The position numbers were made by a program, and so were the translations under genes. DNA of 23,069 nt from Mageeibacillus sp. UBA3708 (GTDB lineage: Bacteria; Bacillota; Clostridia; Saccharofermentanales; Saccharofermentanaceae): NCBI GenBank assembly GCA_002371375.1, contig DFIB01000217.1, positions 1-23,069 on the forward strand, given 5' to 3'. The notes under the pieces are model-generated. The model did not search any database and was not told the DNA's origin. It saw nothing but the letters and a program-made list of their open reading frames with translations. Positions 4,920-12,575 of this stretch are shown in pieces. The stretch's first letter is position 1. Each line of letters starts with the position of its first letter.

Positions 4920-4948
4920 TTGACAAATAACGGATACCGTGATTTAAT
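4920..4948 (+). promoter_or_regulatory. Sigma-A-type promoter of the aromatic operon
   Basis: A perfect TTGACA (4920-4925), a 17-bp spacer and TTTAAT (4943-4948, one mismatch to TATAAT). Transcription would start near 4955, about 24 bases before the leader peptide gene and about 183 bases before aroF. Confidence 0.8.
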
Positions 4949-4978
4949 AAGCGCAGCCTAATTAGGACGGAGCAACCA

Positions 4979-5056
4979 ATGAAGTCAGAAGTCTTTACAT
5001 TTGCATACTTTTATTTTTACTTTGGCAATGACAGTCAGAGCGATTTGTGTGCATAA
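4979..5056 (+). CDS. Phe/Tyr-rich leader peptide of the aromatic operon attenuator
   Basis: This is a 25-codon ORF with its own ribosome-binding site (GGAG at 4969-4972, 6-base spacing). Residues 6-15 read F-T-F-A-Y-F-Y-F-Y-F: five Phe and three Tyr in ten codons (4994-5023). Its position is 82 bases before aroF and just downstream of the promoter, and its last six codons overlap the antiterminator strand (5040-5051). This is the architecture of leader peptides such as PheL. The peptide is presumably not functional in itself; ribosome stalling at Phe or Tyr codons when charged tRNA is scarce would be the signal. The ORF is short enough for gene callers to miss. Confidence 0.88.
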   Translation: MKSEVFTFAYFYFYFGNDSQSDLCA

Positions 5057-5120
5057 TAATAAGACGGGAATCAAGATAACAAGTGCCGCACGGATCGCAG
5101 GATGACCCGGGCGGTTTTTT
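5002..5120 (+). promoter_or_regulatory. Transcription attenuator: protector, antiterminator and terminator
   Basis: Three competing pairings are seen. 1:2 protector: TGCATAC (5002-5008, within the Phe/Tyr codons) with GTGTGCA (5047-5053), 7 bp with one G-U. 2:3 antiterminator: GCGATTTGTGTG (5040-5051) with CGCACGGATCGC (5087-5098), 12 contiguous bp with three G-U. 3:4 terminator: 5086-5093 with 5107-5114, then TTTTTT. A ribosome stalled on Phe/Tyr codons would open 1:2, allow 2:3 and let transcription enter aroF. A ribosome reaching the stop codon at 5054 would cover segment 2 and let 3:4 terminate. Confidence 0.85.
5086..5120 (+). terminator. Intrinsic terminator of the attenuator (3:4 stem)
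   Basis: CCGC-A-CGG (5086-5093) pairs with CCGGGCGG (5107-5114): seven bp with one A/G mismatch and a loop of about 13 bases. Six T follow directly (5115-5120). It ends 4 bases before the aroF ribosome-binding site and is mutually exclusive with the antiterminator. Confidence 0.8.
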
Positions 5121-5137
5121 AATCAGGAGGAGAATTT

Positions 5138-6136
5138 ATGATCGCACAACTTAAGGCAACGGCAACACCTACAGAGATAGAGATGCTCGTATCGTGGCTT
5201 GAGAAGAAGGGAGTCAAGGTCACTCCTATTCACGGTGAATACTGCACCATCCTGGGCCTCGTAGGTGATACGACGAAGATCGATATCGATGTGCTCGAGA
5301 GTATGAGCATAGTCGAGGCAGTGAAGAGAATATCCGAGCCGTTCAAGGCGGCGAACCGTAAATTCCATCCGGAGGATACTGTTGTCGATATAGGCGGCGT
5401 AAAGATAGGCGGAGGGAACTTCGCCATAATTGCAGGTCCCTGTTCAGTCGAATCGGAGGAGCAGATCATTACCACCGCCAAAGCGGTCAAGGAGGCCGGT
5501 GCCACACTCCTGAGGGGCGGCGCATTTAAGCCGAGGACATCTCCCTATGATTTCCAGGGACTGAAGGAGGAGGGACTGAAGTTGCTTCTGAAGGCAAAGG
5601 AAGAGACCGGTCTTCCCATCGTTACCGAGATTATGGCGATCCATCATCTACCTCTGTTCGAAGATATCGACTGCATACAGGTGGGAGCAAGGAATATGCA
5701 GAATTTCGAGTTGCTCAAAGCCCTCGGCAGGACGAACAAGCCGATATTGTTGAAGCGTGGAATGTCGGCTACGATGAAGGAACTTCTGATGAGCGCGGAA
5801 TATATTATGAGTGAAGGCAATCCCAATGTCATCCTCTGTGAGAGGGGCATAAGGACATATGAGACATATACGCGCAATACTTTCGATCTGTCTGCGATCC
5901 CTATGCTCAAGGAGCTTACGCACCTGCCGGTTGTTGCAGATCCTTCTCATGCGACGGGAAGAGCATCTCTTATCAGACCGATGGCAATGTCGGCGACGGC
6001 AGCCGGTTGTGACGGTCTCGAGATAGAAGTACATCCGAATCCGAACGAAGCGTTGTCTGACGGAGCTCAGTCTCTGAAGCCCGATCAGTTCGCCGTTGTT
6101 GTGGAAGCGGTAAATAAAGTTCGCAGTATTCTCTGA
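5138..6136 (+). CDS. aroF: 3-deoxy-7-phosphoheptulonate (DAHP) synthase, class I-beta
   Basis: This enzyme condenses phosphoenolpyruvate and erythrose 4-phosphate, the first step of the shikimate pathway. Residues 1-70 resemble the ferredoxin-like regulatory domain of the Thermotoga maritima type, which binds Tyr and gives feedback inhibition. The (beta/alpha)8 barrel follows. Visible active-site elements are AGPCSVES (Cys102), [27 protein letters not shown] and [12 protein letters not shown]. The metal ligands Cys102, His271, Glu297 and Asp308 fall where the family has them. Length (332) is normal. The start is set by AGGAGG 7 bases upstream. It is the first structural gene behind the Phe/Tyr attenuator, so both transcription and activity are probably tied to aromatic amino-acid supply. 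Confidence 0.96.
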
Positions 6137-6182: not shown

Positions 6183-7118
6183 ATGCTATTAGATAAGATC
6201 GAGGACAGGCTGGAGAAGAGAGGACTTCTGACAGACCGCGGTTGCCCTGAGGGTGGCGTTATCGGACTGGTCGGATTAGGTCTCATCGGAGGTTCATTTG
6301 CCAAGGCATTCAAGGCCAATGCACCCAAGTTTAAGGTGTATGCCGCCAACAGGACAAGATCAACGTTGCAGCGCGCCATTGATGAGGGCGTTGTTGACGG
6401 TGAACTCAATGAAGAGACGACCGGTGAATGTGACCTGATAATCATCAGCCTTTTCCCTGAGGCAGCGATCCGATATATTGAAGAGAACAAACAGTACTTC
6501 AAGCCGAATACGATAGTGACAGATGCATGCGGCAACAAGCGAGGCATATGCAAAGAAGGATTCAGGCTCGCCGAAGACGGGGATTTCATCTTCATAGGAG
6601 CTCATCCGATGGCAGGCACCCAGTATTCAGGATATAGCAATTCCAAAGCTGATATGTTCGAAGGAGCGTCGCTTGTACTTGTCCCGACTCTTGAACACGA
6701 ATTCGACATAACTCCGCATCAGGAGATGGTGATATCACGTCTCAAGACGCTTATGGCTCCGATAGGCTTCGGAGAGTACAGAGTTACAGATGCGGTGACA
6801 CACGATAAGATGATAGCATATACATCGCAGCTGGGACATGTCATTGCCAGCAGCTATATGCGTAATCCCGCAGCCCTCGAGTGCTACGGATTTACAGGCG
6901 GGAGCTGGCGCGACATGACGAGGATCGCATACTGCAATACGCCTATGTGGACGGAACTGTTCATCGAGAACAGGGACAACCTGACGCAGGAGATCGATTT
7001 TATGATCGGTGAGATGACAAGATTCAGGGACGCGATCGGCAGCTGCGACCGCGACAAACTCGCCTCTCTGCTTGATGAGGGGCGGCAACGAAAGGAAAAG
7101 ACAAATTCCCATGAGTGA
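6183..7118 (+). CDS. tyrA: Prephenate dehydrogenase
   Basis: The protein has 311 residues and oxidatively decarboxylates prephenate to 4-hydroxyphenylpyruvate, the Tyr branch. The Rossmann motif VIGLVGLGLIGGSFA lies at about 26-40, and ITDACGNKRG-like and FIGAHPMAGTQYSGY blocks follow, with His141 as the likely catalytic residue. There is no C-terminal ACT domain, so feedback control by Tyr on this enzyme is not evident. The start is less certain: only a weak AGAGGA precedes it, and the first 20 or so residues are not conserved family sequence. It sits 46 bp after aroF and overlaps aroB by 8 bp. No prephenate dehydratase gene is present in this operon. Confidence 0.93.
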   Translation: MLLDKIEDRLEKRGLLTDRGCPEGGVIGLVGLGLIGGSFAKAFKANAPKFKVYAANRTRSTLQRAIDEGVVDGELNEETTGECDLIIISLFPEAAIRYIEENKQYFKPNTIVTDACGNKRGICKEGFRLAEDGDFIFIGAHPMAGTQYSGYSNSKADMFEGASLVLVPTLEHEFDITPHQEMVISRLKTLMAPIGFGEYRVTDAVTHDKMIAYTSQLGHVIASSYMRNPAALECYGFTGGSWRDMTRIAYCNTPMWTELFIENRDNLTQEIDFMIGEMTRFRDAIGSCDRDKLASLLDEGRQRKEKTNSHE

Positions 7119-8199
7119 TAACAGGATACACGTCAGTGCATCACGTGAATATGATGTCGTGATAGGTTCAGGTCTTCTGGCAGACAGCGGTAAGCTTGTC
7201 GCGGAAGCAGTCCCGAAGGCAACGAAGCTCCTTATTGTCAGCGAGACAAATGTTGCTCCGCTGTACATGGATACGGTCGCATCAAGCCTCAGAGAAGCCG
7301 GCTTCGAAGTTACGGAATATGTTTTCGAGGCGGGTGAGAAGAGCAAGAATATCGACACTGTTGCAGGCATGTGGGCTTCCATGGCGAAGGCCGGATTCAC
7401 AAGAACGGATGCAGTTATCGCTTTGGGAGGCGGCGTCACGGGAGATATGGCCGGATTTGCCGCGGCGTCATTCCTCAGAGGTATCAGGGTCGTCCAGATA
7501 CCTACATCACTTCTTGCGCAGGTGGATGCTTCCGTAGGAGGCAAGACCGGTATCGACCTTCCTGAAGGCAAGAATCAGGTGGGGGCCTTCCACCAGCCTT
7601 CGATGGTCATAGAGGATACTGACTGCCTTAAGACACTCCCCAAGGATAAGTTCACGGAAGGTATGGGCGAAGTGCTGAAATATGCTTTCATTATGGATAC
7701 GAAGCTCTATGACAAGCTGGCAATATATGCGGAGGACGGCAAGGCGATGGACCTGCAGAATGATCCTGCAGCACTTGCGGATATAGTAAGGCGGTGCGTT
7801 GAGGACAAGGCCGAAGTCATAGCTGAGGACGAACATGATACGGGCAGGAGACAGATCCTGAATTACGGACATACGATAGGACATGTTATCGAGCGCAACA
7901 GCGGATATACAAAGGATCACGGCATATGCGTTGCGATGGGAATGGGGATAATGACCGACTGCTGCTATGCGGCAGGCAGAATGGACAAGGACACTTATGG
8001 CAAGATGATCGGTCTGATCAACAGCTACGGACTTCCTGCGGATGATGACATCACGCCGGATGATGCTGTGAGCGGTGCCATGAATGATAAGAAGAAGAGG
8101 GGTGATGTAATATCTCTGATCCTGGTCAACAAGATAGGCGAGGCGGAGATAGTTCCCATGACTCCTGATGAATACCATGATTTCCTCACCGGGAGGTAA
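7111..8199 (+). CDS. aroB: 3-dehydroquinate synthase
   Basis: This enzyme converts DAHP to 3-dehydroquinate, the second shikimate step, using NAD and a divalent metal. The protein has 362 residues from the ATG at 7111; an upstream in-frame TTG at 7072 lies deep inside tyrA and is unlikely. Family blocks are ALGGGVTGDMAGFAA, FLRGIRVVQIPTSLLAQVDASVGGKTGI and the metal-binding region with Glu187 (EGMGEVLKYA), His254 (NYGHTIGH) and His270 (DHGICVAMGM). Length is normal. It overlaps the tyrA stop by 8 bp, and its stop codon directly follows the ribosome-binding site of the next gene, so translation along the operon is tightly coupled. Confidence 0.96.
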   Translation: MSDNRIHVSASREYDVVIGSGLLADSGKLVAEAVPKATKLLIVSETNVAPLYMDTVASSLREAGFEVTEYVFEAGEKSKNIDTVAGMWASMAKAGFTRTDAVIALGGGVTGDMAGFAAASFLRGIRVVQIPTSLLAQVDASVGGKTGIDLPEGKNQVGAFHQPSMVIEDTDCLKTLPKDKFTEGMGEVLKYAFIMDTKLYDKLAIYAEDGKAMDLQNDPAALADIVRRCVEDKAEVIAEDEHDTGRRQILNYGHTIGHVIERNSGYTKDHGICVAMGMGIMTDCCYAAGRMDKDTYGKMIGLINSYGLPADDDITPDDAVSGAMNDKKKRGDVISLILVNKIGEAEIVPMTPDEYHDFLTGR

Positions 8200-8205
8200 C
8201 GCAGA

Positions 8206-10605
8206 TTGATAGTATCATTTAGCGACAGAACACTTAATCTTGAGATTGACGCACCTGTATCCAAGTCGATAGCGCACAGGGAACTCATAGTACGTACTTT
8301 CTGCTCGGTCTTCGGGCTGAAGGGCGAAGCGAACTTTGACATCCTCGTTCCCGATCCGGATGACAGCGTGGATATCAGGGCGACCAAGGAATGTCTCACT
8401 AATCTTCTCAACTACAGGAAGACTCCTGACAGGATCGTGATGCCATGTCATGAGAGCGGCTCCACACTGAGGTTTATGATACCTGTGGCGGCTGCTTTTT
8501 TGTCGGTTATGGATGCATCCGACAGGGAGCTTGTTTTTGAGACGGAGGGAAGGCTCTACGACAGGCCTCTCGACGACCTGGAGAACTGTCTTGCACCCCA
8601 CGGACTGACTATCACCAAGAATGATACGGACAGGACCATAAGGATCAACGGAACGATGACGGCCGGCCGTTTTGTTATAGACGGTACTGTGTCGTCACAG
8701 TATATCTCGGGTCTGCTTCTTGCCGTTCCCATGTTCGAGACTACGAGCACCATCGAGGTGACCGGGATCATGTCGTCGATCCACTACATCGGCCTCACCA
8801 TAGAGGCGCTGTTCAAGTACGGTATAAGGATCGAGAAGAACGGGAATTTCTTCCTGATGCGTGAAGAGGATTACTGCTACCGCGAAGTTACGATACCTTC
8901 AAATGAGCTGGAGGTCGAAGGCGACTGGTCGGGAGGAGCATTCCTGCTGTGCCTCGGTTTCCTCATGGAGGGCGGAAGCGTCAGGGTCAAAGGCCTCGAC
9001 ATCAATTCCGCGCAGGGCGACCTGGCGATAATGGATTTCTTTGAAGAATTGGGACTTGATCCGGTGACGGATCCCGACGGCGACATCATTACGGCAAAGC
9101 CTTCGCGGATCGTACCCAAGGATATGGTGACCTTCGACTGCAAAGACATTCCCGACATCGTTCCGTACATGGCGGTGCTGGCTGCGTTCTACAGCAGCAG
9201 AACAGTCTTCTATAACGTTAACCGTCTCAAGGTGAAGGAATCAGACCGCTTTACCGGCGTTATGAAAATGCTCCGCGCCGCAGGCTTTACGGCCGTATCG
9301 GAGGATGACGGCAACACTATGATCATCCGCGGCGGCAAGGTCAACTACAGCAGCGCAGTGCCGCTCAGGCTCACTGCCAGCAACGACCACAGGATGGCGA
9401 TGGCGGCAGTTCTAATTGGCGCGGGATTATCCTGCGACATCGATCTCGATGATGTGCAGTGCATATCCAAATCCTTCCCCGGATTCATCGACGTCATCAA
9501 CAATGAACTGGCACCGTCCAAGATGCAGAGCATCTATAACGGCGATGTGCTGAAGCTCAGGATCTACGGCCAGTCACACAGCAAAAGGATAGGAGTGTAT
9601 ATCGAAGGTCTCCCGGACAGCGTCAAGATAGATGAGAAGTATACTGCCGGTGTGATGGCAAGGAGAGCTCCCGGTAAGAATAAGTGGTCAACGTCAAGAG
9701 TGGAGGCGGATGAGGTGCATTTCGAGAAGATCCGCAAGATGGTCCACGGCTATATAGTGAACACGAATACAAAGCCCAAAGATTATGAATCACTGCTGAA
9801 TAAGCCGCGCCCGTCTCATGCGGACTACACGGCGAGATTCCTCTACGGAGACGACGCGGCAAGGTCGGGAGGCGGAATCTTCTCGGGAAGAATGACGGCG
9901 CCTCTCTGCATTGCAGGATCGATAGCCAAGTGCGAACTGGAGAAGAGAGGAATTATGATCTTCTCGCATCTCCTTCAGATAGGGGAAGCATGTGATGTGG
10001 GCTATTACGAGGGATTTACCCGGGAGGAGATAAGCAAGGTTCAAAAGAAGGATTTTCCCGTTATAGATGATGATGCGGGCAGGCTGATGATACAGGTGAT
10101 CGATGCCGCACGTAAGGACTGTGATTCCGTAGGCGGCGTGATAGAGACAGTTATCTACGGCATGCCGGAGGGGATCGGCGGCCCGCTTTTTGACGGCATT
10201 GAGGGCAAGATTGCACAGATAATCTATGCTGTTCCCGCTGTCAAGGGAGTGGAGTTCGGATACGGATTCGAATCATCATATCTGAGGGGCTCCGAGAACA
10301 ACGATCCTTTCGAGTATGACAAGGACGGCAAGGTTGTCCTCAAGACCAACAAGTGCGGCGGCATCCTCGGAGGAATATCGGTGGGTGGCGACTGTGCGCC
10401 TATAGTATTCAGTACGGCGATTAAGCCTACCCCTTCGATCGGTAAGAAGCAGCAGACTGTGGATCTCGCGGAACACAAGAATACCGTGATTCAGATAGAA
10501 GGGCGTCACGATCCGTGCATTGCACCGAGAGCTGTTCCCGTAATCGAATGCGCCGCAGCTGTCGCAATATACGATATGATACTCGCCAAAGAGAAGGAGA
10601 ACTGA
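8206..10605 (+). CDS. aroA-aroC: Fused EPSP synthase and chorismate synthase (AroA-AroC)
   Basis: This continuous 799-residue frame joins two consecutive enzymes that are normally separate. Residues 1-435 are EPSP synthase: Lys20 in APVSKSIAHRE, ESGSTLRFMIP, RLYDRPLDDL, SSQYISG, DIPDIVP (Asp317), KVKESDRF (Glu345) and ASNDHRMAMAA (His395). A short linker of about 10-15 residues follows. From about 447 on is chorismate synthase: His458 in IYGQSHS, His538 in RPSHAD, SGGGIFSGRMTAP, CGGILGGISVGGD and EGRHDPCIAPRA (Asp769). Both halves have normal length and key residues, so both look active. The start is a TTG with GGGAGG 9 bases upstream; no nearby ATG fits. Channelling of EPSP between the sites is possible but not shown. 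Confidence 0.93.
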   Translation: MIVSFSDRTLNLEIDAPVSKSIAHRELIVRTFCSVFGLKGEANFDILVPDPDDSVDIRATKECLTNLLNYRKTPDRIVMPCHESGSTLRFMIPVAAAFLSVMDASDRELVFETEGRLYDRPLDDLENCLAPHGLTITKNDTDRTIRINGTMTAGRFVIDGTVSSQYISGLLLAVPMFETTSTIEVTGIMSSIHYIGLTIEALFKYGIRIEKNGNFFLMREEDYCYREVTIPSNELEVEGDWSGGAFLLCLGFLMEGGSVRVKGLDINSAQGDLAIMDFFEELGLDPVTDPDGDIITAKPSRIVPKDMVTFDCKDIPDIVPYMAVLAAFYSSRTVFYNVNRLKVKESDRFTGVMKMLRAAGFTAVSEDDGNTMIIRGGKVNYSSAVPLRLTASNDHRMAMAAVLIGAGLSCDIDLDDVQCISKSFPGFIDVINNELAPSKMQSIYNGDVLKLRIYGQSHSKRIGVYIEGLPDSVKIDEKYTAGVMARRAPGKNKWSTSRVEADEVHFEKIRKMVHGYIVNTNTKPKDYESLLNKPRPSHADYTARFLYGDDAARSGGGIFSGRMTAPLCIAGSIAKCELEKRGIMIFSHLLQIGEACDVGYYEGFTREEISKVQKKDFPVIDDDAGRLMIQVIDAARKDCDSVGGVIETVIYGMPEGIGGPLFDGIEGKIAQIIYAVPAVKGVEFGYGFESSYLRGSENNDPFEYDKDGKVVLKTNKCGGILGGISVGGDCAPIVFSTAIKPTPSIGKKQQTVDLAEHKNTVIQIEGRHDPCIAPRAVPVIECAAAVAIYDMILAKEKEN

Positions 10606-10608
10606 TAC

Positions 10609-12141
10609 ATGGCTTACGATATTAATGAGCTCCGCAAGGAGATAGACGCGGTCGATCTTGATCTTCTGGACTGTATTGAGAGAAGAATGGCGATAAGCCG
10701 CAAGATCGGCGTCAGCAAGAGAGAGCTCGGCAAGGATATTCTTGATTCTTCACGCGAGAAATCCAAGATCAGTGCGCTTCTGGCTAATGCCGGATTCGAG
10801 AGCAAGGAGTATGTGGAGGAGATATACAAGACCATATTTGAAGTGTCGCGCGCTCACCAGAACAAGCCGTGCTTCGGCCTCCTCGGAAGGACACTCGGTC
10901 ATTCATATTCACCGCAGATACACAGCCTTCTGACGAATGAGTATTCATATACGATCATCGAGCGCGAGCCGGAAGAGCTGGATGCGCTTTTTGCATCCCG
11001 CGTCTACGGCGGATTTAACGTTACGATTCCTTACAAGAAGGAAGCCTTTGCAAGGTGCGATGTGTGCGATGAGGCAGCTTCCGAGACGGGAAGCGTCAAT
11101 ACGGTCGTGTTCGGCAAAGACGGTAAGACATACGGATACAATACTGACTACTACGGATTTATGTTCATGCTGCGTTCCGCAGGTATCGATCCGTCCGGCA
11201 AGAAAGTGCTTGTTCTCGGAACGGGTGGTGCTGCATGCGCCGTAACGTACGGTCTGCGCACTATGAACGCAGGCGATATCAAGAGCTGCGATCTCGAGAC
11301 GGAGATCAACTATTCCAATGTATACGATATCTGCAAAGACAGCGAGATAATCGTCAACTGCACGCCCGTCGGAATGTACCCCAAGGTCGATAACTGCGTG
11401 ATAGATCTGGACAGGTTCCCGGCTCTTGAGGCGGTATGTGACGTCATCTATAATCCTTCGCGCACGAAGCTCATACAGGAAGCTCAGAAGAGAGGTCTTA
11501 AGACATGCGGCGGCTTGGCGATGCTCGTTGCACAGGCATACAAATCCAGCCGGTTCTTTGCCGGTGATATAGAGGGTGCCGGCCGCATAGACAGCAAGGC
11601 CGAAGAAGCTATCGGACGCGTTGTAGGTATACTCGAATCTAGGATGAAGAATATCACCATAATCGGAATGCCCGGCTGCGGCAAATCATTGCTGGCGAGG
11701 ATGCTCGCACAGCGCACGGGCAGGGAACTTGTGGATCTGGATCAGGCATATGCCGAGAAGATCGGTGAGACACCTGCCGATACCATCATGACACAGGGTG
11801 AGGATCAGTTCAGGCTGAACGAGACCGAGGTCGCCAAAGAATATCTGGTCAAGAGCGGACTGATAATATCATCCGGCGGCGGAATAGTTACGCAGGAGCG
11901 CAACGATTTCTGGCTCAGGTGCAATTCGAACATAATCTATCTCGACCGCCCTCTCGAAATGCTGGCCTCCAAGAACAGACCGCTGTCAGCCGCAAAAGGC
12001 GTTGAAGTGCTTTATGAGCAGCGCAAGGACAGGTACGAAGCGTTGGGTGATATCAGGATATCTCTCGACAGGTTCGAGAGCAAGGACGATTTCTTCGAGG
12101 CGGCTCTCGATATCATGAGACAGGGAGGTCTTGATGTATGA
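10609..12141 (+). CDS. Trifunctional chorismate mutase, shikimate dehydrogenase and shikimate kinase
   Basis: The protein has 510 residues in three domains. Residues 1-85 are an AroQ-type chorismate mutase helix bundle (LRKEIDAVDLDLLDCIERR, Lys37, RE at 49-50). Residues 86-335 are shikimate dehydrogenase: shikimate-site LGHSYSP, NVTIPYK (Lys143), NTD (Asp180), GTGGAACAV and NCTPVGMYP. Residues 346-510 are shikimate kinase: P-loop GMPGCGKS (353-360), VDLD (376-378), FR (401-402), GGG (423-425) and RPLS (457-460). Chorismate mutase-AroE fusions occur in clostridia; a further fusion to AroK is the unusual part. The AroE nucleotide domain is about 13 residues short and lacks the usual NRT motif. 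It begins 3 bp after the aroA-aroC stop and overlaps aroQ by 4 bp (ATGA). Confidence 0.93.
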   Translation: MAYDINELRKEIDAVDLDLLDCIERRMAISRKIGVSKRELGKDILDSSREKSKISALLANAGFESKEYVEEIYKTIFEVSRAHQNKPCFGLLGRTLGHSYSPQIHSLLTNEYSYTIIEREPEELDALFASRVYGGFNVTIPYKKEAFARCDVCDEAASETGSVNTVVFGKDGKTYGYNTDYYGFMFMLRSAGIDPSGKKVLVLGTGGAACAVTYGLRTMNAGDIKSCDLETEINYSNVYDICKDSEIIVNCTPVGMYPKVDNCVIDLDRFPALEAVCDVIYNPSRTKLIQEAQKRGLKTCGGLAMLVAQAYKSSRFFAGDIEGAGRIDSKAEEAIGRVVGILESRMKNITIIGMPGCGKSLLARMLAQRTGRELVDLDQAYAEKIGETPADTIMTQGEDQFRLNETEVAKEYLVKSGLIISSGGGIVTQERNDFWLRCNSNIIYLDRPLEMLASKNRPLSAAKGVEVLYEQRKDRYEALGDIRISLDRFESKDDFFEAALDIMRQGGLDV

Positions 12142-12575
12142 GAATACTCGTTCTCAACGGCCCGAACATTAACATGCTCGGCATCAGGGAGCCTGACATT
12201 TACGGCAAGTCCACATATGATGATCTCATTGACATGATCACGGATCACTGCAGCGACAGGGATATCTTCGTGGAGTGCAAACAGAGCAACCACGAGGGCG
12301 ATCTCGTCGACTATATCCAGCAGGCGTACTTCGATAAGGTTGACGGCATCGTTATCAATCCCGGTGCATACACCCACACATCTGTCGCCATTCTCGATGC
12401 AGTCAAAGCGGTGTCCATTCCGACAGTCGAGGTTCACATCTCGGCCGTAAACGAGCGCGAAGAGTTCAGGCAGATATCGTACATATCACGCGCAGCAGTG
12501 AAGACAGTCATGGGCAAGGGTTTTGACGGCTACATTGAGGCCATCGATTACCTCGCCGATAATGTGATAAAATAG
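12138..12575 (+). CDS. aroQ: Type II 3-dehydroquinate dehydratase
   Basis: The protein has 145 residues and dehydrates 3-dehydroquinate to 3-dehydroshikimate, the third shikimate step. Type II family marks are LVLNGPNINMLGIREPDIYG with the catalytic Tyr, INPGAYTHTSVAILDA with Asn and His, and VEVHIS-EREEFR with His and Arg. The motif usually reads HLSN/HISN; here it is HISA, and the following segment SYISRAAVKTVMGKG departs from the usual SPVA-GVI-G pattern. It overlaps the preceding gene by ATGA and a GGGAGG lies 8-12 bases upstream. It is the last recognised aromatic gene and completes the route from DAHP to chorismate. Confidence 0.95.
   Translation: MRILVLNGPNINMLGIREPDIYGKSTYDDLIDMITDHCSDRDIFVECKQSNHEGDLVDYIQQAYFDKVDGIVINPGAYTHTSVAILDAVKAVSIPTVEVHISAVNEREEFRQISYISRAAVKTVMGKGFDGYIEAIDYLADNVIK

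Follow-up and report, generated by a model that had tools for sequence, protein, structure and literature searches.

The DNA in front of aroF, the first gene of an aromatic gene row in a 23,069-nt stretch from Mageeibacillus sp. UBA3708 (the whole stretch is called the window here), raises the question of whether a translated leader peptide rich in Phe and Tyr codons controls transcription of the genes that follow, and how widely such a leader occurs. A preliminary description of this DNA had proposed a leader-peptide attenuator; reading the sequence again confirmed its promoter, its 25-codon ORF with eight Phe/Tyr codons in ten, its 12-bp antiterminator and its six-T terminator, which are laid out together with the remaining parts as follows.

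4920-4948, plus strand: promoter by sequence reading, with -35 box TTGACA (4920-4925), a spacer of 17 nt and -10 box TTTAAT (4943-4948)
4969-4972, plus strand: Shine-Dalgarno sequence GGAG of the leader ORF, by sequence reading
4979-5056, plus strand: leader peptide ORF MKSEVFTFAYFYFYFGNDSQSDLCA, 25 codons and a TAA stop; an equivalent is present at 80 of 81 genus loci, the window counted
4994-5023, plus strand: control codons, eight Phe/Tyr among ten codons
5020-5040, plus strand: protector hairpin of 7 bp (5020-5026 with 5034-5040), in which the region of the last Phe codon pairs with the head of box 2; covariation in relatives
5040-5051, plus strand: box 2, the 5' strand of the antiterminator, GCGATTTGTGTG
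5087-5098, plus strand: shared strand, CGCACGGATCGC, at once the 3' strand of the antiterminator and the 5' arm of the terminator
5085-5120, plus strand: intrinsic terminator, hairpin 5085-5115 (-13.3 kcal/mol) and T run 5115-5120 (six T)

The 12 bp of the antiterminator (5040-5051 with 5087-5098) include G-U pairs, and the aroF start codon, ATG at 5138, lies directly 3' of the leader terminator; with a transcription start predicted near 4955 from the -10 box, the leader is approximately 165 nt long. A simple promoter and terminator scan omitted the leader promoter, since its rule demands A at position 2 of the -10 box, and also the terminator at 5085; it reported the protector hairpin at 5020-5040 as terminator-like. 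The three pairings had been described as mutually exclusive. This holds strictly for antiterminator versus terminator, whereas the protector, although conserved with covariation, shares a single base (5040) with the antiterminator, and the two coexist in the window model.

The genes behind the leader form a continuous row on the same strand.

5138-6136, plus strand: aroF, DAHP synthase (TIGR01361/NF006421)
6183-7118, plus strand: tyrA, prephenate dehydrogenase (Pfam above cut-off, NCBIfam equivalogs under cut-off)
7072-8199, plus strand: aroB, 3-dehydroquinate synthase (the start is a mechanical ORF call; the true start is probably later)
8206-10605, plus strand: aroA-aroC fusion, EPSP synthase and chorismate synthase
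10609-12141, plus strand: chorismate mutase-aroE-aroK fusion
12138-12575, plus strand: aroQ, type II 3-dehydroquinate dehydratase

From aroF to aroQ, this row covers all steps to chorismate together with chorismate mutase and prephenate dehydrogenase. The operon had been called complete. This is accurate as far as the trunk to chorismate goes, with chorismate mutase and TyrA added; prephenate dehydratase, however, is encoded elsewhere in the source genome, where two matches were found. One of these genes, on L202, appears by eye to be a chorismate mutase fusion, and visual inspection showed no F/Y leader in front of it; the other, on L201 from 1378, encodes a separate prephenate dehydratase-domain protein with an N-terminus that looks like a lipoprotein signal.

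The arrangement has the constituents of an attenuator: a short ORF with start signals between promoter and first gene, a run of codons for the amino acids that the pathway produces, a terminator before the first gene, an antiterminator that shares a strand with this terminator, and, for an assumed ribosome footprint, a placement of the codons that frees or covers box 2. It would work as follows. The ribosome would trail RNA polymerase while translating the leader ORF; when charged tRNA-Phe or tRNA-Tyr is scarce, it would stall in the Phe/Tyr run with its front edge just before box 2 (5040-5051), which would remain free to pair with 5087-5098, so that no terminator forms and the operon is transcribed. 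When both tRNAs are charged, the ribosome would reach the stop codon and cover box 2; the terminator at 5085-5120 would then form, and transcription would end before aroF. The ORF, its codon run, the alternative pairings, and the conservation of these pairings and of the spacing come from computation, and from these we infer ribosome stalling, termination in the cell and a response to both amino acids. As judged from sequence and folding models, the leader is very probably a ribosome-mediated transcription attenuator, which would sense charged tRNA-Phe and tRNA-Tyr.

Chance is a poor source of such codon runs. When the 240 nt before aroF were dinucleotide-shuffled 20,000 times, no shuffle produced a short ORF that attained eight F/Y in ten codons and two produced one with seven; the other 240-nt tiles of the window, taken on both strands (n = 756), reach a maximum of four. 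Within the genus, aroF was matched in 82 of 85 genomes, the window's genome counted, and 81 loci have at least 200 nt upstream of aroF, with a locus cut 91 nt upstream (L186 of genome G072) and a paralogue (L200) set aside; a leader ORF with at least seven F/Y in ten codons is present at 80 of them, a level that was reached by 6 of 16,000 shuffles. No locus of the 81 reaches six F/Y in ten codons on the reverse strand. Counts for residue pairs lacking both F and Y (HQ, NK, DE, CH) were 0 or 1 of 81; control pairs that include F or Y score via the same F/Y runs. The sole genus exception, L015 of genome G020, has a start codon but, behind it, a frame that is shortened and shifted; it retains the remainder of the element, box 2 and terminator included (model match E 2.0e-5). 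The break in this ORF looks like an internal deletion, either a real variant or an assembly error. The preliminary description had turned to aroF-keeping relatives as its comparative test, and these relatives do retain the short ORF with its codon run (80/81) and the terminator (79/80). Promoter scores of at least 10 of 12 were obtained for 74 of the 79 genus leaders scored, with the better of TATAAT and TTTAAT taken as the -10 box.

The composition of the leader peptides bears on what the ribosome would respond to. Trp occurs in none of the 80 genus leaders, and in 79 of them the last six aromatic codons include Phe as well as Tyr, while leader length, stop codon and flanking residues differ between clades. 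In the MKTAV clade (n = 35), F and Y are exchanged at three positions and Tyr codons alternate between TAT and TAC; codons 2-6 are invariant at the DNA level in 35/35 leaders. These patterns have to be set against the proposal of an arrest peptide, in which a Phe/Tyr-rich nascent chain stalls the ribosome upon a free metabolite, as in TnaC, and not upon uncharged tRNA. A short hydrophobic peptide that precedes a terminator and is conserved within clades such as MKTAV would suit this proposal; yet F/Y interchange and variable third codon positions in two tabulated clades, run lengths and flanks that differ between clades, and the lack of a fixed arrest motif by eye speak against it, and an RNA hairpin would better account for the DNA invariance of codons 2-6 in the 35 MKTAV leaders. 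Peptide arrest is therefore very improbable, and stalling on uncharged tRNA-Phe or tRNA-Tyr is preferred. Sensing of both amino acids is plausible and indeed rather likely, although the closest precedent, the aroR leader of Corynebacterium glutamicum discussed below, argues for caution.

Pairing evidence was drawn from the 79 genus leaders with a terminator (L002, which lacks one by the scan rule, is omitted from this set) and from a covariation alignment of 31 of the 42 class A leaders, which leaves out eight near-duplicates and the divergent L022, L196 and L197; a recount with all 42 rows covered antiterminator and terminator only. Terminator and protector each show four doubly changed pairs in the 31 rows, numbers that were reached by 8 and 2 of 500 shuffles, respectively, and with all 42 rows the terminator is 99.7% paired over seven pairs, three of them doubly changed. 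The antiterminator is paired in 97.9% of cells (97.2% with all 42 rows), and its changes in the 31 rows consist of an exchange between UA (18) and CG (11) and of a single column in which GU, AU and GC all occur. Sliding the partner strand by 1-3 columns reduced pairing to 26-53% in the antiterminator, to 35-50% in the terminator and to 40-56% in the protector. Under the two stricter measures, which relatedness affects least, the antiterminator does not surpass its shuffles (one doubly changed pair vs. a mean of 1.0; six further pair types vs. 7.0), and it exceeds them only in doubly changed cells, cells paired and score, all three of which are inflated by relatedness. The compensatory changes sought in relatives are found above shuffles for terminator and protector, and for the antiterminator come down to the one UA/CG pair. 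The antiterminator duplex beats all 100 of its own shuffles in 22 of the 79 leaders (median z -2.3), and L196 has no good duplex of this kind.

Class B leaders (36 rows) have a different box 2. Their protector is 100% paired in 36/36 rows and their terminator 92.3% paired, and the modelled antiterminator is paired in 85.3% of cells with no double change. In 7 of the 36 rows (class B leaders include, e.g., L013 and L016), a synonymous TTC in place of the Phe codon TTT is compensated, on the opposite side of the protector, by a TGA in place of the stop codon TAA.

The position of the codon run relative to box 2 is more constant than that of the stop codon. Across 79 leaders, the last F/Y codon precedes box 2 by 15.2 +/- 1.2 nt, and the distance from stop codon to box 2 is 0.8 +/- 7.3 nt; stop positions relative to the box 2 start fall into two clusters with no continuum between them, 61 leaders at -9 to -1 and 18 at +11 to +20. 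A fixed spacing from run to box 2 with a varying stop is what a ribosome-placement rule predicts. Folding of transcripts that end before the second arm of the terminator, with the front edge of the ribosome assumed 13 nt past the A-site base, gave on average 12.8-13.4 antiterminator pairs for all A-site positions between 11 codons short of the last F/Y codon and two codons beyond it; the mean is 13.4 at this codon itself and drops to 10.7 after three more codons, to 5.4 after five and to 4.3 when the stop is reached. Since the antiterminator forms in truncated transcripts even when the ribosome is far upstream, the protector fails to explain the untranslated state in the window.

The same spacing weighs on the possibility that the terminator acts constitutively and prematurely, with the ORF effective only through translation re-initiation or as a functional micropeptide. 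The distance of 84-177 nt from leader stop to aroF across the genus would be compatible with such a role, and the pairing evidence by itself is moderate; against this, conservation extends to box 2 and its complement, whose position follows the codon run rather than the stop, and the peptide ends vary. Constitutive termination is accordingly given little credence, and attenuation governed by the position of the ribosome remains the preferred reading.

Equilibrium folding of the full leader reproduces the switch in the window: a ribosome that has not yet entered the run, or stands in its first half, leaves the terminator at a probability of 0.89-0.97; this falls to 0.07-0.09 on the last three Y/F codons and returns to 0.98 once the stop is reached. 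The dip to 0.07 inside the run was seen at all footprints tried (10-16 nt), with 0.26-0.30 at the very last Phe codon for footprints of 14 and 16 nt. Shuffled window leaders pass the same rule, terminator off when stalled and on at the stop, in 41 of 1000 cases; the minimum free energy of the whole leader is not unusual (z -0.77) and was rejected as evidence for an attenuator; and the model energies of the window are close (six-pair protector with antiterminator -24.4, protector with terminator -26.7). Because the whole-leader fold is ordinary and 41/1000 shuffles mimic the switch, the structural case for the window rests on its relatives. Among these, the terminator probability at the stop exceeds that at the last F/Y codon by more than 0.3 in 15 of 79 leaders, and in most the terminator dominates at equilibrium at every ribosome position, so that a switch there would have to be kinetic. 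Equilibrium terminator probability was dropped as a general test, as it works in the window and in a minority of leaders (15/79), and the truncated-transcript measure was used instead. A pause of RNA polymerase after the protector hairpin fits some leaders by eye, though not that of the window, and is not claimed here.

T-boxes provide the contrast within the same genome. The T-box model has five matches in the source genome, one of them over cut-off and all on contigs other than the window's; the match C103:378-635, which at 68.6 bits (E 8.2e-15) falls short of the cut-off of 93, stops 158 nt upstream of a trpE match that begins at 794, and in five relatives (G001, G004, G005, G008, G012) a T-box over cut-off lies just before trpE. 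Two further T-boxes of the source genome precede what we take by eye to be leuA-like and aspartyl-tRNA synthetase-like genes. Across the genus, T-boxes were found in 59/59 genomes sampled at E <= 0.001, 53 of them over cut-off. The window has no Rfam match at gathering threshold, and the leader, searched against Rfam 15 at E up to 10, yielded only a chance XIST match, with neither the T-box (RF00230) nor the Leu/phe leader (RF01743) matched; T-box, riboswitch and known leader families were rejected for this leader as they had no Rfam support. That the leader is a T-box or an unknown riboswitch sensing tRNA or a ligand, with a coincidental ORF, can be dismissed almost entirely: the frequency of T-boxes in the genus and the one before trpE in this genome would favour it, but the leader has no credible Rfam match, the five T-box matches lie on other contigs, and the conserved signal consists of codons and spacing. 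In this organism, trp is probably under the control of a T-box and the Phe/Tyr operon under that of a leader peptide; both devices would exert starvation control via premature termination, the T-box sensing tRNA directly and without an ORF.

A covariance model (R1) built from the 31 class A leaders was used to follow the element beyond the window. R1 has exactly one match in the window's genome and one match each in 83 of 85 genus genomes, 31 of which are training rows; the two misses are G072, where the contig ends, and G013, a genome without an aroF match and with a tyrA match. Together with the ORF and codon run and the terminator, this distribution supports the leader-peptide attenuator proposed at the outset; the leader element is real and conserved, and by its sequence and modelled behaviour most likely a ribosome-mediated attenuator. 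In G086 and G087, both without an aroF match, the element lies directly before tyrA, with leaders that are F/Y-rich by eye. G086 is 83% complete, so the missing aroF could reflect incompleteness. Both genomes have unfused aroA and aroC, unlike the AroA-AroC fusion of the window, and G087 has a chorismate mutase-prephenate dehydratase gene inside the attenuated gene row.

Outside the genus loci, at least six F/Y in ten codons were found at 54 of 70 further contig loci whose upstream DNA is not identical to that of genus loci; these 70 are among the best aroF matches, not a random set, and some may belong to the same genus. R1 matched 16 of the 70 at E <1e-3 (E-values are rough), and in the 520 kb searched every one of the 26 R1 matches that reach this level, those of the genus among them, is positioned just upstream of aroF. 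Under the TTTT rule, 23 of the 54 loci with at least six F/Y have no hairpin below -8 kcal/mol; several of these 23 show, by eye, a stem with an interrupted T run. The nearest named matches of the window's aroF come from a sheep gut Clostridiales MAG (97%), a Saccharofermentans MAG (77%) and strain KHP2 (75%). Six MAG records titled Treponema (L047) or Bacteroidaceae (L049, L051, L054, L055, L059) have aroF 66-70% identical to that of the window, and by the scan L047 and L051 carry an F/Y leader and the other four do not; these records represent either mislabelled bins or transfer.

For the class as a whole, 157 genomes with a requested completeness of at least 85 were sampled, 40 of them without an aroF match at E 1e-60. 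The count covers 104 of 112 non-genus genomes with a match, leaving out three with partial matches (G107, G207, G249) and G171, G184, G216, G224 and G229; in G188 the second match was used, as only 142 nt separate the first from a contig end, and L212, with 132 nt upstream, was scored as "none". An F/Y leader ORF precedes aroF in 43 of these 104 genomes, as opposed to 1/104 in the reverse-strand control; leaders with at least seven F/Y occur in 27/104, distributed over 17 of 45 families. A T-box-like motif lies upstream of aroF in 12/104 genomes, and 49/104 have neither this motif nor an F/Y leader. R1 matched 4 of the 100 class loci searched (100 of the 104) at E <1e-3, and with so few matches common descent is supported for only part of the class. 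On balance it is just about probable that an undescribed and largely homologous RNA family extends across Clostridia, with a Phe and Tyr leader peptide, a conserved box near AGYGRTTTGTGC and a shared terminator arm, and that it controls aroF (tyrA where no aroF was found) in response to either amino acid, by tight timing between ribosome and polymerase, with T-boxes serving other amino acid genes such as trpE.

The logic of the element is that of the pheL/pheA and trpL/trp attenuators of Escherichia coli, which combine control codons, protector, antiterminator and terminator, and each of which answers to a single amino acid. The window leader differs from these systems of other genes and another phylum in combining Phe and Tyr codons and in a protector that overlaps box 2 by one base. 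An aroR leader before the aroF operon of C. glutamicum was reportedly described by Neshat in 2014. The passages on aroR in one source present a Phe-Tyr-Phe leader before aroF that acts by attenuation and responds to Phe limitation, with Tyr availability having no effect (PMC11802643); the leader is also mentioned in part of another (PMC4046766). Like the window leader, aroR as portrayed there is a leader peptide with Phe and Tyr codons that works by attenuation before the DAHP synthase gene aroF; compared by description only, it differs in having three aromatic codons instead of eight and in belonging to Actinobacteria. The uORFC-13-1 motif before aroF of Acholeplasma resembles the window leader in being a predicted uORF with at least one Phe codon and a terminator; its 24 representatives come from Acholeplasma and environmental sequences only, and its description, the sole basis of this comparison, mentions no Tyr codons (PMC8632094). 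Amino-acid leader peptides in the same broad phylum, as described in the relevant parts of the sources, include the Leu/phe leader RF01743 of Lactococcus lactis (PMC2864571), the His leader of bacilli before hisS/hisZ (PMC2965389) and the Leu attenuator of Staphylococcus aureus (PMC5794164), which concern other amino acids, genes and orders.

No description of a clostridial Phe/Tyr leader before aroF came up in searches of open-licence full texts. The view that a mixed Phe/Tyr attenuator is little described thus stands for Clostridia but has to yield to the aroR precedent, as presented in the part of PMC11802643 concerned; and leader peptides have other precedents in Firmicutes, namely the hisS/hisZ, S. 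aureus Leu and Lactococcus Leu/phe leaders, to the extent that these sources cover them, and in Acholeplasma. The Phe/Tyr aroF leader of the window type is apparently undescribed, ordinary in its logic and unexpectedly widespread in Clostridia, and in the window it escapes Rfam 15. It points to leader-peptide attenuation rather than T-boxes as the control of aromatic biosynthesis in many Clostridia of the gut and rumen. A 2026 study, in the part that treats this point and following earlier work, classes Bacillota at the phylum level as having runaway (uncoupled) transcription (PMC13323073); a switch widespread in Clostridia that needs the ribosome close to RNA polymerase over a leader of approximately 165 nt would make the coupling question directly testable.

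The start regions of the leaders show some additional variation. Of the 78 genus leaders that score at least 9 for the promoter, 11 have a -10 box that ends only 7 nt before the leader ATG, and in those shown (L009, L160, L161, L163, L144) no SD was seen by eye; the same closeness of -10 box and ATG recurs on the minus strand of L314 at 9500-9550. Judging by this spacing, the attenuator peptide of these short-gap leaders would come from leaderless mRNA; sister clades use an SD. Strong pairing (< -12 kcal/mol, with no shuffle control) between the transcript-start region and the first leader codons was found in 43 of 78 leaders, and none was seen by eye in the window leader. In the MKTAV type (e.g., L018 and L010; leader start -60 to +24), ACCGCAGTTTT pairs with codons 2-5 and encloses the SD and ATG of the leader, a pairing that may control leader translation or may be an operator.
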